Shown here: positions 7,152 through 24,136 of the stretch, one piece after another | Layout: the number at the start of each line of letters is the position of its first letter | Position numbering within the stretch: the first letter of the stretch is position 1 | Virus record (IMG/VR): IMGVR_UViG_3300037520_002403 | Coordinates: 1 to 29,731 of that record | Source: a virus | Direction: 5' to 3' (one strand) | DNA length: 29,731 nucleotides | Made by a program: the position numbers and the translations under genes | The notes under the pieces: model-generated | The model's input: only the letters and a program-made list of their open reading frames with translations | The model's database searches: none | What the model was told of the DNA's origin: nothing

Positions 7152-8182
7152 CCGCCATCACCGTCGCCGCAACGCGCAGCTACCTCCACGCATTTCCGCA
7201 ATGCGTCCGCGCCATCGCCGCCGCAGCGTGGCACCTCGAGCCCGCCCACTTTATCCTGGCCACCGACGAATCCAAAGAAGCCAAATCCGCCGCCGAGATC
7301 GCACAAAGAGAGTTGCCGGAAGGCTGGAAAGTCACTGTGCTGAATCTGCCGATCAAAGACGACGCCTCGACCCGCTACAAAGAAGAAGCCCAGCTCCGCA
7401 TCGCCGCCCTCCAAGGCGCCGCCTTCGCCTTCGCCCGTAAAATCCGCGCCACCCGCCTCCTCGTCGTCGAATCCGACACCATCATCCCCGCCGACGCCTT
7501 CCGCGTCCTCGAGTGGACCCTCGACATGCCCGGCGCCGACGGCCGCCCGCACTACCACATCGCCGCCGCCACATACCCAAACGGCCTCTTCCTCGGCGGC
7601 TTCGGCACCCAGGCCCACCAGATCGCCGAAGATTTCCTGCCCTCCGAGCGCAAACTCCCGTCCCGCCTTGCACTCTGCCTCGACACCTGCGAATCCCGCC
7701 TCAAGTCCTGCAAAAACCAAAAAACCGCCGAGCGCGAGCACAAGCGCATGCACCGCCTCCGCGAGCGAGTGAAAAAATGCCCCCCCGACGGCAACATCTG
7801 GGAAGTCACCGCCAAACACGGCTGGCGTCGCCGCGGCTGGCTCGATTTCGCCTATCCCGGCATCGGCCGCGGCAGCATCGTCCCCAGCGATTGGTGCGGC
7901 CTCGGCTGCACCCTCCTCAGCCAGGCCGCCCTGGCCCACGCCGATTTCACCGGCTACGAGGGAAAAGGCACCCAGGATTTATTCCTTTGCTGGCACCGCT
8001 GGCACCCCGCCGGTCTCCGCATCGCCGCCGTCCCCCACATCGTCTGCGACCACATCAAACGCCGCAGCCCCAGCGACCCACCCGACTCCCCCGAAATCTT
8101 GCATCACCGCGCCTACCACGAACTCGAAGGCGAACACCGCGGCCACCTCCGCGTCCGCACCCAGCCCTTCGTGTCCGTTTGA
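7148..8182 (+). CDS. glycosyltransferase-like protein (GT-A fold candidate)
   Basis: A 344-residue protein. Residues 1-120 look like a Rossmann-type nucleotide-sugar domain ending in LLVVESDTIIPADAF, where ESD (108-110) occupies the usual DXD position. Towards the end, GYEGKGTQDLFLCWHRW (about 269-285) and a later VPHIVCDH resemble the acidic and His motifs that close the active site of family-2-like enzymes. A basic, Cys-containing helical insert (about 165-215) separates the two halves. The gene starts inside the stop of the adhesin gene (ATGA) and precedes the fibre genes. A plausible job is glycosylating a virion fibre or the host surface. The fold assignment is motif-based and moderately sure; the substrate is unknown. 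Confidence 0.6.
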   Translation: MTAITVAATRSYLHAFPQCVRAIAAAAWHLEPAHFILATDESKEAKSAAEIAQRELPEGWKVTVLNLPIKDDASTRYKEEAQLRIAALQGAAFAFARKIRATRLLVVESDTIIPADAFRVLEWTLDMPGADGRPHYHIAAATYPNGLFLGGFGTQAHQIAEDFLPSERKLPSRLALCLDTCESRLKSCKNQKTAEREHKRMHRLRERVKKCPPDGNIWEVTAKHGWRRRGWLDFAYPGIGRGSIVPSDWCGLGCTLLSQAALAHADFTGYEGKGTQDLFLCWHRWHPAGLRIAAVPHIVCDHIKRRSPSDPPDSPEILHHRAYHELEGEHRGHLRVRTQPFVSV

Positions 8183-17475: not shown

Positions 17476-18458
17476 AAAAACCCAACGCACTCCAAAACAT
17501 CGTCTCCAAAAGCCAAGTCGCCGCCGCGCTCAACGAAGCCGCCGCCGCCCGCTCCCAGCTCGAAGCCGAACGCCGCGCCCACGCTGAGACCGTCAAAGCC
17601 CTCGAGCGCGTCCGCTTCACCAAGCCCCCCAAAAAAATCACCCCACGCACCAGCACCGCAGGCACCGGCGATATCGTCGAAGTCATCTTCAGTGATGTCC
17701 ACGGCAACAAGCACGACCCCGCCGCCATGGCCGCCTTCTTGGGAGATCTCAAATCCCTCAACCCCGACCGCCTCATCATCGGCGGCGATTTCGTGGATTG
17801 CGGCGGCTTCCTCGCCGAGCACCACACCCTCGGCTATGTCGCCGAAACCGAAGACTCCTACGAAGACGATGTGGCCGTCGCCAACAGCCTCCTCGACCAA
17901 ATCCTCGCCGCCGCCCGCCCCAGCGAAGTCCACTACATCGAGGGCAATCACGAGTGGCGCGTCGAGCGTTGGGCACTCACCCAACGCCTCGCCCACCACA
18001 AAGACACCGACCTCCTCCGCCGCACATTCTGCCCCGAGCATGTCCTGCGGCTCAAAGACCGCGGCATCGCTTACTACCACCAAGGCAAAACCCACGGCGA
18101 CTGCGACACCCCCGGCTGGGTCAAAATCGACAAAGCCTTCTTCGTCCACAAAATCAGCAACGCCCGCGATGCCGCGGGACAAGCCATGGCCAAAGCCGCC
18201 GCCAACATCGTGTTCTTCGACACCCACCGCGCCGCCTACAAGCCCATGCACCTCCCCGGCGTCGGCCTCATCAGCGCCTGGAACCCCGGCTGCCTCTGCA
18301 AACGCCAACCCCTCTACGCCAACACCCGCCCCACCGAGTGGACCCACGGCTACCTCGTCCGCTTCATCTCCAAAAAGACCGGCAACTTCCAGATGGTCAA
18401 TGTCACCATCAACGACGGCGTCAGCTACGCCTCCCTCCTTTTGAAACCCAAGTCATGA
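17472..18458 (+). CDS. calcineurin-like metallophosphoesterase, variant active site
   Basis: A 328-residue protein. A helical N-terminal segment (~15-50) precedes a metallophosphoesterase domain with DVHGNKHD (Asp75, His77), LIIGGDFVDCGG (Asp106) and IEGNHEW (Asn159, His160), the first three metal-binding motifs. The final motifs differ: where phage relatives have a VHG and then GHTH, this protein has FVHKISN and FFDTH (249-252), so the Gly-His of the last motif is Phe-Asp. The enzyme may use one metal differently or have changed substrate. It is coupled to the endolysin gene by overlap and to the next gene by ATGA. Substrate unknown; nucleic-acid or nucleotide phosphodiester hydrolysis is usual for phage members. 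Confidence 0.8.
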   Translation: MKKPNALQNIVSKSQVAAALNEAAAARSQLEAERRAHAETVKALERVRFTKPPKKITPRTSTAGTGDIVEVIFSDVHGNKHDPAAMAAFLGDLKSLNPDRLIIGGDFVDCGGFLAEHHTLGYVAETEDSYEDDVAVANSLLDQILAAARPSEVHYIEGNHEWRVERWALTQRLAHHKDTDLLRRTFCPEHVLRLKDRGIAYYHQGKTHGDCDTPGWVKIDKAFFVHKISNARDAAGQAMAKAAANIVFFDTHRAAYKPMHLPGVGLISAWNPGCLCKRQPLYANTRPTEWTHGYLVRFISKKTGNFQMVNVTINDGVSYASLLLKPKS

Positions 18459-18898
18459 ACAAGCTCCTCGCCCTCGTCGCCAAGCACAAAGCCGCCAAAT
18501 ACGGCATCCCGCCCAACCAAGGCTGGCTCACCCGCCAGCAAGTTGCCCGCCAGCTCGGCACCACCGACCGCAATGTCCACGACCTCCTCCGCGACGCCAT
18601 TGAGGCCAAAGACATCGAGTGCAAAAAATTCTCCGATTGGGACGCCGCCAGCATGCGCCCCGTGCAAGTCACCTGCTACCGCATCCTCGCCGACCTCCCC
18701 GAGAAAAAATCCCCCGCCAAAAAATCCACGCCCCCCGCAGCCACCGGCCCCATCAGCGCCGAACTCCGCACCGCCGTCCTCGCCGCCCACAAACGCCATC
18801 CGCACCTCCCCGGCCGCCGCCTCCGCGAATACCTCCCCCCCCGCCTCCGCCGCGCCTCCACCGGCGACCAAGTCCTCGAAATCCTCGCCAAAGCGTAA
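18455..18898 (+). CDS. putative DNA-binding protein (HTH-like)
   Basis: A 147-residue basic protein. GWLTRQQVARQLGTTDRNVH (about residues 23-42) reads as a helix-turn-helix that decides sequence-specific DNA binding; it is followed by a wing-like beta segment (QVTCYRI) and a Lys/Pro-rich linker leading to a second basic helical domain (LRTAVLAAHKRHP). No dimerisation or ligand domain is apparent. It starts inside the stop of the phosphoesterase gene. It could be a late regulator or a structural DNA-binding protein; the role is unknown. Confidence 0.6.
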   Translation: MNKLLALVAKHKAAKYGIPPNQGWLTRQQVARQLGTTDRNVHDLLRDAIEAKDIECKKFSDWDAASMRPVQVTCYRILADLPEKKSPAKKSTPPAATGPISAELRTAVLAAHKRHPHLPGRRLREYLPPRLRRASTGDQVLEILAKA

Positions 18899-18910: not shown

Positions 18911-19207
18911 ATGCCCCACCGAACCGCCAGGTTAAAAATCCGCGGCCAATGGTGGCGCCTCCTCCTCCGCCGCATCGCCCCCCGGCGCCACGGCGACCAC
19001 TACCTGACCATGCACGGCGAGTGCAAATACAGCGACCGCGAAATCATCGTGAACCCCCAGTTCGACCCCGAGCGCACCACCATCCACGAAGTCCTCCACG
19101 CCGCCCTCCCCGACCTCGACGAGATCACCATTTTGGAAGTCGAAACCGCCGTCTGCGACGCCCTCACCGCCCTCCGCCGCCTCCAGCCGAAAAACTCAAG
19201 TCGATGA
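18911..19207 (+). CDS. small HEXXH zinc metallopeptidase-like protein
   Basis: A 98-residue protein with TTIHEVLHAALPDLDE, a classic HEXXH zinc motif (His59, Glu60, His63) with a downstream acidic run that may supply the third ligand. The preceding segment (HGECKYSDREIIVNP) matches the beta strand that commonly precedes this helix in small phage SprT/ImmA-like proteins of about 100 residues. The N-terminal tail is Arg-rich. Targets are unknown; related proteins cleave regulators or virion proteins. It ends with a 12-base overlap with the convergent repressor gene. Confidence 0.7.
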   Translation: MPHRTARLKIRGQWWRLLLRRIAPRRHGDHYLTMHGECKYSDREIIVNPQFDPERTTIHEVLHAALPDLDEITILEVETAVCDALTALRRLQPKNSSR

Positions 19208-19564
19208 TTTCCGCCTCCCACCCTTCGGGTATTTCATAGTCGTTCGGCGAATTGAGGACCCACCACCGAAGCTCTGCGAGGGCCTCAAGATGTTCCCGGC
19301 AGCAGTGGCATTCTCCACATCGGGCCCTGTGTGAGGTTGGGCCGCTGCTTTTCCCTCTTTAAGCGCCAAGAGGTCCCTCGCCGTTTGCAAATTTTGCGCC
19401 CGCAGCGCCGCCGTGTCCCGCTGCACCAGCCGCTGGATGTAGCGGGAAAACATGCTCTCCCCCTCTTCCTGCATCCGCTGGTGCGCCAGCGCATACAAAT
19501 CCGCATCGAAAGAAATCGTCCTCCGCTCGCACAATTTCTCTTTTCGTTTCCGCGTCGTTTTCAT
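19196..19564 (-). CDS. ribbon-helix-helix repressor A (leftward)
   Basis: A 122-residue protein. Residues ~12-52 (ERRTISFDADLYALAHQRMQ followed by SRYIQRLVQRD) have the ribbon-helix-helix pattern of MetJ/Arc repressors: a short strand that inserts into the major groove, then two helices. The remaining ~70 residues are helical and then basic, possibly for oligomerisation. The ATG at 19564 was chosen because the first 23 residues of the longer frame run through the intergenic region. It is transcribed leftward as a single gene, divergent from a similar RHH gene at 19666. By analogy with phage repressors it is likely to bind the shared intergenic region. Confidence 0.75.
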   Translation of the reverse strand: MKTTRKRKEKLCERRTISFDADLYALAHQRMQEEGESMFSRYIQRLVQRDTAALRAQNLQTARDLLALKEGKAAAQPHTGPDVENATAAGNILRPSQSFGGGSSIRRTTMKYPKGGRRKSST

Positions 19565-19585
19565 CGGTGAATCAACTTTCACACC

Positions 19586-19669
19586 AAGTATGAAAAAAAA
19601 CAACTTTTTGTGAACATTAGGTCTTGACCCCATTGACCAATCTTCATACTTTCCGCGTCACAAGTATGA
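19586..19669. promoter_or_regulatory. shared RHH operator/promoter region
   Basis: AAGTATGA occurs at 19586-19593 and 19662-19669, and its complement TCATACTT at 19644-19651. The last two form a perfect 8-bp inverted repeat with a 10-base spacer whose right arm covers the ATG at 19666. On the + strand, TTGACC at 19624-19629 is followed 17 bases later by TACTTT, a weak -35/-10 pair overlapping the inverted repeat. The interval is A/T-rich relative to its flanks. This is the expected place for autoregulatory operators of the two divergent repressors. Confidence 0.55.
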
Positions 19670-19842
19670 GGAAAGACGCAAAGAAAAAAACCGAAAAGCG
19701 CACGATCTCGATGCCCCGCCCGCTTCTCTCCGCCGCCCTGGAACGCAGTAAACAAGAGCATCGGACGCTTTCGAGCTACATCCAGTTTTTGATTGCGCGC
19801 GATGCCGCGCAGTCCTCCGAAAACGAAAAACAACCCGCCTAA
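19666..19842 (+). CDS. ribbon-helix-helix repressor B (rightward)
   Basis: A 58-residue protein that is almost only an RHH domain: EKRTISMPRPLLSAALERSK then SSYIQFLIARD. It aligns with the N-terminal domain of the divergent repressor A (RTIS, L, A, R, E, S-YIQ-L-RD), so the two are paralogues. It lacks the long C-terminal extension. The ATG at 19666 overlaps an operator-like arm; an upstream in-frame ATG at 19624 would read through the operator region and is disfavoured. It is the first gene of the rightward early operon, the position taken by cro in lambdoid phages. Confidence 0.7.
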   Translation: MRKDAKKKTEKRTISMPRPLLSAALERSKQEHRTLSSYIQFLIARDAAQSSENEKQPA

Positions 19843-20274: not shown

Positions 20275-20478
20275 ATGACACAGCACCAAACCCACGCCGC
20301 CCTTCTCGCCGCGGTAGAGGCCCTCCTCGCCGCCGTCAAAGCCCAAGGCACCCCCCAGCCCCCACGCCACTCCATATCACGCCCACGGCCACCCCGCCGC
20401 CGCGAACGCTGGCTTACCCCCGACGAAGTCACCGCAGGATTCGCCCGGCTCCGCGCCGAACTCGCCGCCACTGAATGA
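20275..20478 (+). CDS. small basic protein of unknown function
   Basis: A 67-residue protein with an N-terminal Ala/Leu helix (AALLAAVEALLAAVKA), a Pro/Arg-rich middle (PRHSISRPRPPRRRERW) and a C-terminal helix. No motif is recognised. It lies in the run of tiny early genes and its stop overlaps the next ATG (ATGA at 20475-20478). Confidence 0.5.
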   Translation: MTQHQTHAALLAAVEALLAAVKAQGTPQPPRHSISRPRPPRRRERWLTPDEVTAGFARLRAELAATE

Positions 20479-20915
20479 TCCACGAGCCCCACTACTGGAC
20501 CGATCCAGCGGCCAGCGACACCGAGGAGGAGCGCATCTGCGAGGAATTCGGCGTCGGCCCCGCCCTCGCCCGCCGCATCAAAGTTTACAAAGACGACGCC
20601 CTCGCCGAGGCCATTGATTGGGAAGTCGCCCAGATTCTCTCCAAAGTCCTCAGCGACTTCTGCCGCCCCTGCAAAAACCTCCGCGCCCGCGTTTACGGCC
20701 TCATCTTTGCCGCTGGTCTCGACATGGTCAACGGCATCCACAGCCAGGCCGAGATCGCCAAACAGATCGGCTGCACCCGCGCCCTCATCAGCCACTACAC
20801 CACCCAATGGGCCGACAAAATCCGGCTCGGCGTCTTTAAATTCAGGAAGGCCGAATCCTCCAGGCCGACCTTCCGCAACGCACAACTCGAAGCCTGGAAA
20901 ACCAGAAAATACTAA
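20475..20915 (+). CDS. HTH protein, possible early regulator
   Basis: A 146-residue protein with an acidic N-terminus and a C-terminal segment SQAEIAKQIGCTRALISHYT that is a good sigma-like/MarR-like helix-turn-helix (turn at IGCTRA). Between them a Cys pair (FCRPCKN) and helical region may stabilise the fold. It could act as a transcription regulator of early or late genes. It is too short and unlike small terminase subunits, and a better terminase candidate exists at 27379. Confidence 0.6.
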   Translation: MIHEPHYWTDPAASDTEEERICEEFGVGPALARRIKVYKDDALAEAIDWEVAQILSKVLSDFCRPCKNLRARVYGLIFAAGLDMVNGIHSQAEIAKQIGCTRALISHYTTQWADKIRLGVFKFRKAESSRPTFRNAQLEAWKTRKY

Positions 20916-22738: not shown

Positions 22739-23013
22739 GCCAATACGAACTCGACCCAGACCGCCTCGGCTTTCCGTGCGACCTCGCCCCCGTCATCGGC
22801 CTCTCGAAAAACGAAATCGCATTTCTAAAACGCAAAGGCTGCCCGTTTTTCGGACGCAAAACCACCGTCCGCTGGGTCCGCGACTTCATAGCCCGCCAGG
22901 CGGGGGCACCAACGCCGCAGCCGCCCGAGCATCAGACAAATTCAGCTTGGAATAGACCGCATGCACCAACCGCGTCGAATGGTTCACGAGCCGCATCGCC
23001 TGCGACTCGCTAA
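22735..23013 (+). CDS. HTH protein, candidate excisionase/regulator
   Basis: A 92-residue protein. LAPVIGLSKNEIAFLKRKG followed by CPFFGRKTTVRWVRDFI is a MerR/excisionase-like helix-turn-helix in which the wing would be the FFGRKTT segment. It is the last gene of the early operon and its final 128 bases overlap the 3' end of the convergent integrase gene, including the codon for the integrase catalytic Tyr. The location beside the integrase makes an Xis role plausible. The C-terminal ~40 residues are low-complexity. Confidence 0.55.
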   Translation: MSQYELDPDRLGFPCDLAPVIGLSKNEIAFLKRKGCPFFGRKTTVRWVRDFIARQAGAPTPQPPEHQTNSAWNRPHAPTASNGSRAASPATR

Positions 23014-23905
23014 GGCCCGCCCGATGGCACCTCGTCACGAAACTCACCCGAAGCGAATGGCTCGTCGCCCCGCAAGCCTTTTTCAAAATCGAATTGAAAA
23101 CCCTGTTCTGGTCACCCGTCAGACGCCCGCTCGTCCGGTCCCGTTTTTTAAAAACCTCCTTCAAATGCCCGGCCAGCCCCACCGGCAACGGCACGGCATA
23201 CCGCTTCCGCGGATCCCCCTCCTTCCGCTTTGAGTCATTCAACCAAATGACCCCTTCCACAAAATCCACATCCTGTTTGCCGAACTCCGCTTCATTGAAC
23301 CGGCAGCCCAAGTGCGCGCAAATCTCGAAGACCGTCCGCATCCATTTCGCCCGGTCCGCGAAGGCCGCCCGCGCCGCCGCGAAATCCTCCGTCGAAAGCT
23401 CCTTCTTCGGCTTCGGCGGCGTCCGCGCCACCTTCGCCAGCGCCAGGGCATTCTTGGCGCAAAGCTCCCGCCGCAGCGCCTCTTGGATCACGAAGGAAAA
23501 CAGTTTCAACTCCAGCCGCGCCGTGTTGTGGCTCGCCCCCTGCCCCTTCCGCCAGTCCATGAAATCGTGTGCATGCTCATACCGAATGTCCGCTGGATGC
23601 CGCAAATTCCGCACCCGCATCCACTCCAGACACCGGCTCCACGCCAACTCGTATCTTTTCCGCGACCGCACATTCTCGAAGTGGGATTCCAAATATGCCG
23701 GAGCCCACTCAACAAAATCCCCATGCCGGAGCGCCGTCAGCGCCTCCCGCTTCGAAGCCACCTCCGCCATCCGCTGCGCCTTCCGAGTCTCCTTCGGATC
23801 ATTGATCCGGCACCGAGTCGATTCCTCCCGCCATTTCCCCGAATCCAGGTCCCGATATTTCAGAACCCAAAACGCCGACTTCGAAGTCTTCCGCAAAAAC
23901 GCCAT
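22886..23905 (-). CDS. int: tyrosine recombinase (phage integrase)
   Basis: A 339-residue integrase starting MAFLRKTSKSAFWVLKYRD (AP2-like N-terminal arm-binding domain), then a SAM-like core-binding domain, then the catalytic domain with Arg202 (HLGCRFNEAE), probable Lys228, HSLR (His283, Arg286), VNHSTRLVHAVY (His309, Tyr318). This is the R-K-H-R-H-Y set. The ATG at 23905 was chosen because the longer open frame runs through the attP region and over the divergent primase gene; GGAGG lies just upstream, and GGGAG a few bases further. It integrates the phage genome at the host attB. Confidence 0.9.
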   Translation of the reverse strand: MAFLRKTSKSAFWVLKYRDLDSGKWREESTRCRINDPKETRKAQRMAEVASKREALTALRHGDFVEWAPAYLESHFENVRSRKRYELAWSRCLEWMRVRNLRHPADIRYEHAHDFMDWRKGQGASHNTARLELKLFSFVIQEALRRELCAKNALALAKVARTPPKPKKELSTEDFAAARAAFADRAKWMRTVFEICAHLGCRFNEAEFGKQDVDFVEGVIWLNDSKRKEGDPRKRYAVPLPVGLAGHLKEVFKKRDRTSGRLTGDQNRVFNSILKKACGATSHSLRVSFVTRCHRAGLSESQAMRLVNHSTRLVHAVYSKLNLSDARAAAALVPPPGGL

Positions 23906-24136
23906 GCCTCCAAACTCCCACAAGCTCCCACACACCTCCACAAAAATCGTGTGGGACAAAGTGGGCTTTTGTTCATTAACAACGCCTTGCGTAAGTTCAA
24001 ATTCTCTACCGTTACACCACGAGGCAATCTTTTGTCTTGTTTTTGAAGCACTTGCGGGAGGCTCCCACACGGCTCCCACATTTTTTTGGGTGTTTGCCGA
24101 TGTGCAACAGGCGTCACTTTCCAGCGGGAGACTTTC
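23906..24136. promoter_or_regulatory. int-primase divergent region, probable attP
   Basis: CTCCCACA direct repeats occur as two pairs: 23915-23922 with 23925-23932, and 24062-24069 with 24073-24080. Starts are 10 and 11 bases apart, about one helical turn. Another CTCCACA lies at 23936-23942 and TGTGGGA is inverted at 23950-23956. The pairs flank ~130 bp containing a tRNA-like stretch (24 bases from 23996). Paired arm-type sites flanking a core beside int is the attP architecture of lambda-type systems. The divergent promoters of int and primase must also lie here, though I cannot define their boxes. Confidence 0.6.

Follow-up and report, generated by a model that had tools for sequence, protein, structure and literature searches.

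The well-studied primary switches of phages are mostly built from helix-turn-helix repressors, and pairs of ribbon-helix-helix (RHH) repressors are known as an accessory region of phage P22. At lambda OR, CI and Cro are arranged around common operators, and immunity types are mosaic within the family. In the P22 immI region, arc and ant are under repression by Mnt, while mnt is inhibited in turn by Arc (PMC11016777). The immI region is secondary to immC (C2/Cro) and is not needed for lysogeny (PMC11016777, PMC8022706). YosL of SPbeta and the Arc-like proteins of Pf phages are single Arc-type RHH proteins that have been implicated in lysis-lysogeny control (PMC10516654, PMC7549136). They differ from the locus described here in the absence of a divergent RHH pair and in the presence of other repressors, the master repressor MrpR in SPbeta and an own repressor C in Pf. 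No description of an RHH pair as a primary switch was found in the open-access literature searched, which was an incomplete set.

The window, the whole stretch of DNA that was analysed, was an IMG/VR virus record of 29,731 bp. It contained two divergent genes, A and B, whose start codons were separated by 101 bp (19565–19665). The proteins shared 20 of 48 residues in a pairwise alignment (42% identity, E = 1e-7) and were matched by profile-profile comparison with 97.4% probability (E = 1e-11); as judged by sequence, A and B are paralogues. These values agreed with the sequence-only reading, which had described a similar divergent pair of one long and one short protein. Gene B headed the rightward early operon, and the only clear genes on the minus strand of the window were A and the integrase. 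The earlier claim that A is transcribed alone held for the window and failed in several relatives, in which a DUF4177-type gene was located downstream on the strand of A. Such a gene, oriented like A and either close to it or immediately downstream, was found at 7310–7570 of L004, at 2425–2712 of L030, and in a Chthoniobacter prophage described below, and was absent from the window.

The layout resembled P22 immI, in which a divergent RHH pair of a long protein (Mnt, 82 aa) and a short protein (Arc, 53 aa) exerts mutual control and the short gene heads an operon (PMC11016777, PMC8022706, PMC7549136). The comparison with Arc and Mnt, already drawn in the sequence-only reading, was apt also in that an Ant-like Bro-N gene followed B in some relatives, in the order mnt-arc-ant. 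Of the 21 related records, 3 had a Bro-N antirepressor gene, and the window had none. Bro-N/Ant genes within the B operon, with differing RHH types upstream, were located at 2995–3777 of L033, 1216–1998 of L037, and 1–674 of L035. The locus differed from immI in that the pair headed the replication operon, ant was mostly absent, sequence similarity of the window proteins to Arc or Mnt was undetectable, and an immC-like pair was not found in the window or in the complete relatives. Because P22 immI is secondary and dispensable, and no immC-like pair was found here, the system was not filed as immI itself. With lambda OR, the locus shared two repressors of the same fold flanking common candidate operators that overlapped divergent promoters, as well as a family-wide mosaicism of putative immunity types. 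In contrast to lambda OR, the proteins were of the RHH rather than the helix-turn-helix type, without a RecA-cleavable S24 domain, and the half-sites were located in the −10 boxes and on a start codon.

Table. Positions of the gene pair, its candidate operators and promoters, and the integration functions in the window
Feature	Position	Strand	Remarks
Gene A, candidate RHH repressor	19196–19564	minus	122 aa; Mnt/CI-like position
Gene B, candidate RHH repressor	19666–19842	plus	58 aa, almost domain only; Arc/Cro-like position
Degenerate half-site TTCACACC	19578–19585		Fourth site, overlooked in the sequence-only reading
Half-site 1, AAGTATGA	19586–19593	plus	Overlaps candidate −10 of A promoter
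Half-site 2, TCATACTT on plus strand	19644–19651	minus	Overlaps candidate −10 of B promoter
Half-site 3, AAGTATGA	19662–19669	plus	Covers the ATG of B (19666)
Candidate operator, A promoter	19578–19594		Degenerate palindrome TTCACACC/AAGTATGAA
Candidate operator, B promoter	19643–19670		Dyad TTCATACTT-N10-AAGTATGA, spans −10 and start codon
Candidate A promoter	19585–19614	minus	TTCACA-N18-TACTTG
Candidate B promoter	19624–19652	plus	TTGACC-N17-TACTTT
Tyrosine integrase	22886–24028	minus	
attP core CTACCGTTACACCACGAGGCA	24006–24026		21 bp; the Chthoniobacter tRNA-Gln prophage has the identical core as attL and attR

The monomer models of A and B each contained two helices of the expected length after a TIS segment (residues 21–34 and 39–72 in A, residues 18–31 and 35–54 in B), and the strand itself was unformed. 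In the A model, the RHH domain comprised approximately residues 10–55 with pLDDT values of ~90, helix 2 ran on to residue 72, and the tail was modelled with low confidence. The Foldseek matches of both models were nearly all of the RHH type (NikR, P22 Arc, CopG, ParD, CdbA, and ORF56) and also included plant TCP domains; the E-values were about 1, and none was below 0.001. The Pfam RHH models matched neither A nor B of the window. Window B was weakly matched to phrog_582 (Arc-like repressor, E = 0.024), and a PDB sequence search gave weak matches only, such as the RHH protein CdbA (E = 0.09). The B proteins of two related sequence types, IV and V, exceeded the Pfam RHH_1/RHH_5 cut-offs. The presence of an RHH domain in A and B of the window, as claimed from the sequence alone, was well supported by the relatives and by the predicted fold.

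The exact half-site AAGTATGA/TCATACTT occurred three times in the 29,731 bp, each time at the A/B gap, while a first-order Markov model predicted 0.14 exact copies of AAGTATGA for the full record. The three sites reported before, including the one on the start codon of B, were thus recovered with no exact copy elsewhere. Any 8-mer in triplicate was obtained in 40 of 20,000 dinucleotide shuffles of the gap, and in ~2% of other real 136-bp windows, chiefly coding sequence; judged in one sequence, the triple is therefore significant and not overwhelming. Each candidate −10 box of the A and B promoters fell within a half-site. A promoter scan tool placed the A promoter in a different register (TTCACA-N16-CATACT). 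The TTGACC of the B promoter and its distance to TTCNTAC were constant across types I, II, and IIb.

The relatives were gathered by helicase or integrase searches, without an RHH query. A divergent RHH pair was present at the locus in all 14 of the records found in this way that covered it. These pairs fell into about five sequence types, each with its own candidate operators: type I (the window, L024–L029, and L036), type II (L004 and L034), type IIb (L077, L083, L085, L086, L089, and L091), type III (L030, L033, and L061–L064), type IV (L069), and type V (the Chthoniobacter prophage), with L037 intermediate between types. The C-terminal tails of A were shuffled between types, such as ESVDLPQDK...KTGSQK shared by L034 and L037, which indicates that the recognition domain and the tail move independently. 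No relative of B was found in INPHARED. The nearest isolate was the distant Akkermansia phage Moulinsart (helicase 25%, TerL 36%), and none of its annotated regulators was of the RHH type by eye or by Pfam. The phage appears to be temperate and to belong to Verrucomicrobia-type bacteria.

In the relatives, the candidate operators changed together with the proteins; conservation of the sites with both genes was a check that the sequence-only reading had proposed. Where the half-site changed from AAGTATGA to AAGTAGGA, both arms of the dyad changed together. The B promoter of type I contained TTCATACTT-N10-AAGTATGA, and the A promoter contained TTCATACTGAGTATGAA in most relatives, a perfect palindrome in L024–L029. 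The arms at the B promoter were TTCCTAC and GTAGGAA in type II, a symmetric change of both arms, and TTCCTACTT and AAGTAGCA in type IIb. Type III (L033) contained GTGAGCACACTTT-GAAAAT-AAAGTGTGCTCAC, and type V contained ACGCCGTAACACGGCGT between −35 and −10. Exact long dyads at the B promoter were matched in 1 of 1000 shuffles for L026 and in 0 of 1000 for each of L034 and L033, and the dyads of types IIb, IV, and V were no better than shuffles. The A/B gap of L037 (430–590) contained one TTTCATACTT together with several copies of TTTCTGA and its complement, which may represent another operator type in transition.

RHH proteins contact DNA by the N-terminal strand. Within a type, this recognition strand was common to A and B (RRTISF/KRTISM, KKSISM/KKSISL, FVGFR/FIGFR, and TLSLSL/TLTISI), as expected of two repressors with a common operator set; type IV did not fit this match. 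The true A/B pairing ranked best of 720 permutations by strand similarity, with the register set by eye, and within the top 38 of 5040 permutations by whole-domain similarity. As far as sequences can indicate, the joint change of sites and proteins from type to type supports the reading of one operator set by both proteins.

The window's own ORFs contained no CI, Cro, or S24 repressor by profiles or by Pfam and PHROG scans, in line with the earlier statement that no conventional helix-turn-helix pair was visible. As judged from the relatives, the record lacked ~5 kb of the phage, namely the head genes. A CI-like repressor was therefore sought in complete relatives, as it would have spoken against the RHH pair, and none was recognised in either of the two. 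The first was a prophage of 30.2 kb in a Chthoniobacter MAG, integrated at a tRNA-Gln gene and flanked by two copies of CTACCGTTACACCACGAGGCA with a spacing of 30,156 bp. In the window, this attP core was present as a single intact copy, identical to one end of the Chthoniobacter tRNA-Gln gene, which indicates a free or circular phage form rather than an integrated prophage. The prophage was complete and carried the type V pair, and no CI-like repressor was found in it with HTH_3/S24 profiles or in Pfam/PHROG ORF scans. Its sole XRE-type protein adjoined HigB and, by position, is the HigA antitoxin. The HigB-HigA pair (Chthoniobacter contig G021:C20, reverse-complement coordinates 34558–35127) was located between the lysis genes and the putative switch. 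The second relative, G003, had a full gene set and a length of 34,587 bp at closure, its ends being joined through an exact 127-bp repeat, and was taken as a complete genome with the caveat that its closure was of the same kind as that of G017. Among the PHROG/Pfam matches listed for G003, none pointed to a CI, Cro, or S24 gene. Across 21 records, no match to the HTH_3 profile reached the cut-off, and the S24 matches in the two MAGs were on other contigs. The record G017 (IMGVR_UViG_3300027746_000023, 57.5 kb) was dropped as a complete genome, since it is probably an assembly lariat of two phages joined at an exact 127-bp repeat, and for this reason its gene list was left out.

A and B probably form a mutually repressing RHH switch over common half-sites, which would also be the immunity determinant. 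In the mechanism that we infer, including DNA binding, the winner in each state, bistability, lysogeny control, and immunity, A and B would both bind AAGTATGA-family half-sites in the 101-bp gap, and this binding would control the two divergent promoters with −10 boxes inside the half-sites. A, on the strand of the integrase, would be the lysogenic repressor and would shut the rightward promoter for B and the early/replication operon. B would be the lytic repressor, which would use the same sites to shut A and to throttle its own promoter. Mutual repression at common operators would give two states, like CI/Cro at OR or Mnt/Arc at immI. Since the pair and its operator changed together among relatives, the locus may also define heteroimmunity groups. 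It is apparently an interchangeable heteroimmunity cassette, wired like P22 immI and serving as the primary switch.

The P22 antirepressor acts on a separate CI-like repressor. The RHH pair could likewise be a secondary region that tunes the early operon or an antirepressor, with another, unrecognised repressor holding lysogeny. This arrangement would be consistent with the Bro-N/Ant genes of G003, G018, and G020, which follow B or occupy the corresponding position (the mnt-arc-ant order), and with the dispensability of P22 immI for lysogeny (PMC11016777), but ant was missing from most relatives and from the window, and the two complete relatives yielded no CI/S24 repressor. A helix-turn-helix protein (20475–20915), with a sub-threshold HTH_3/CII-like match, was conserved in nearly all relatives and could fill such a role; however, it is a poor candidate for a lysogenic repressor because it sits inside the rightward early operon, where it would be silenced. 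It could be a CII-like helper or activator, and it could share in regulation with a possible DNA-binding protein (18455–18898). A secondary role of the pair is accordingly regarded as unlikely, though worth weighing.

RHH proteins also commonly serve as plasmid partition proteins or antitoxins, and some PHROG matches of the relatives were labelled partition proteins, so that A and B might act in ParA-type segregation or toxin neutralisation with autoregulatory sites. This is very improbable and was already disfavoured, since no ParA or toxin family was found in the window, the neighbours of the pair varied among relatives, one relative was a chromosomally integrated prophage, and divergent RHH genes with common sites match neither a toxin-antitoxin nor a partition layout. 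It is still more improbable that the dyad over the start of B is an RNA hairpin for B translation and the A-promoter site a promoter coincidence: co-varying arms would fit a hairpin equally well, but the conserved −35/−10 sets the predicted transcription start ~6–8 nt before the ATG of B, so that the first arm, within the −10, would stay untranscribed, the half-site was found again at the A promoter, and an Rfam search at the locus gave no match.

For this temperate phage clade with Verrucomicrobiota-type hosts, the RHH pair may well be the primary and only switch and immunity determinant, in the form of interchangeable cassettes whose two recognition strands and full set of half-sites co-evolve into heteroimmunity types. 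If true, this would be a phage family in which lysogeny depends solely on RHH pairs and in which variants of specificity occur naturally. It would provide a matched set of proteins and operators for the study of how paralogues keep a common DNA code as the code changes, and it would predict how the phages of a little-studied bacterial phylum divide into immunity groups.
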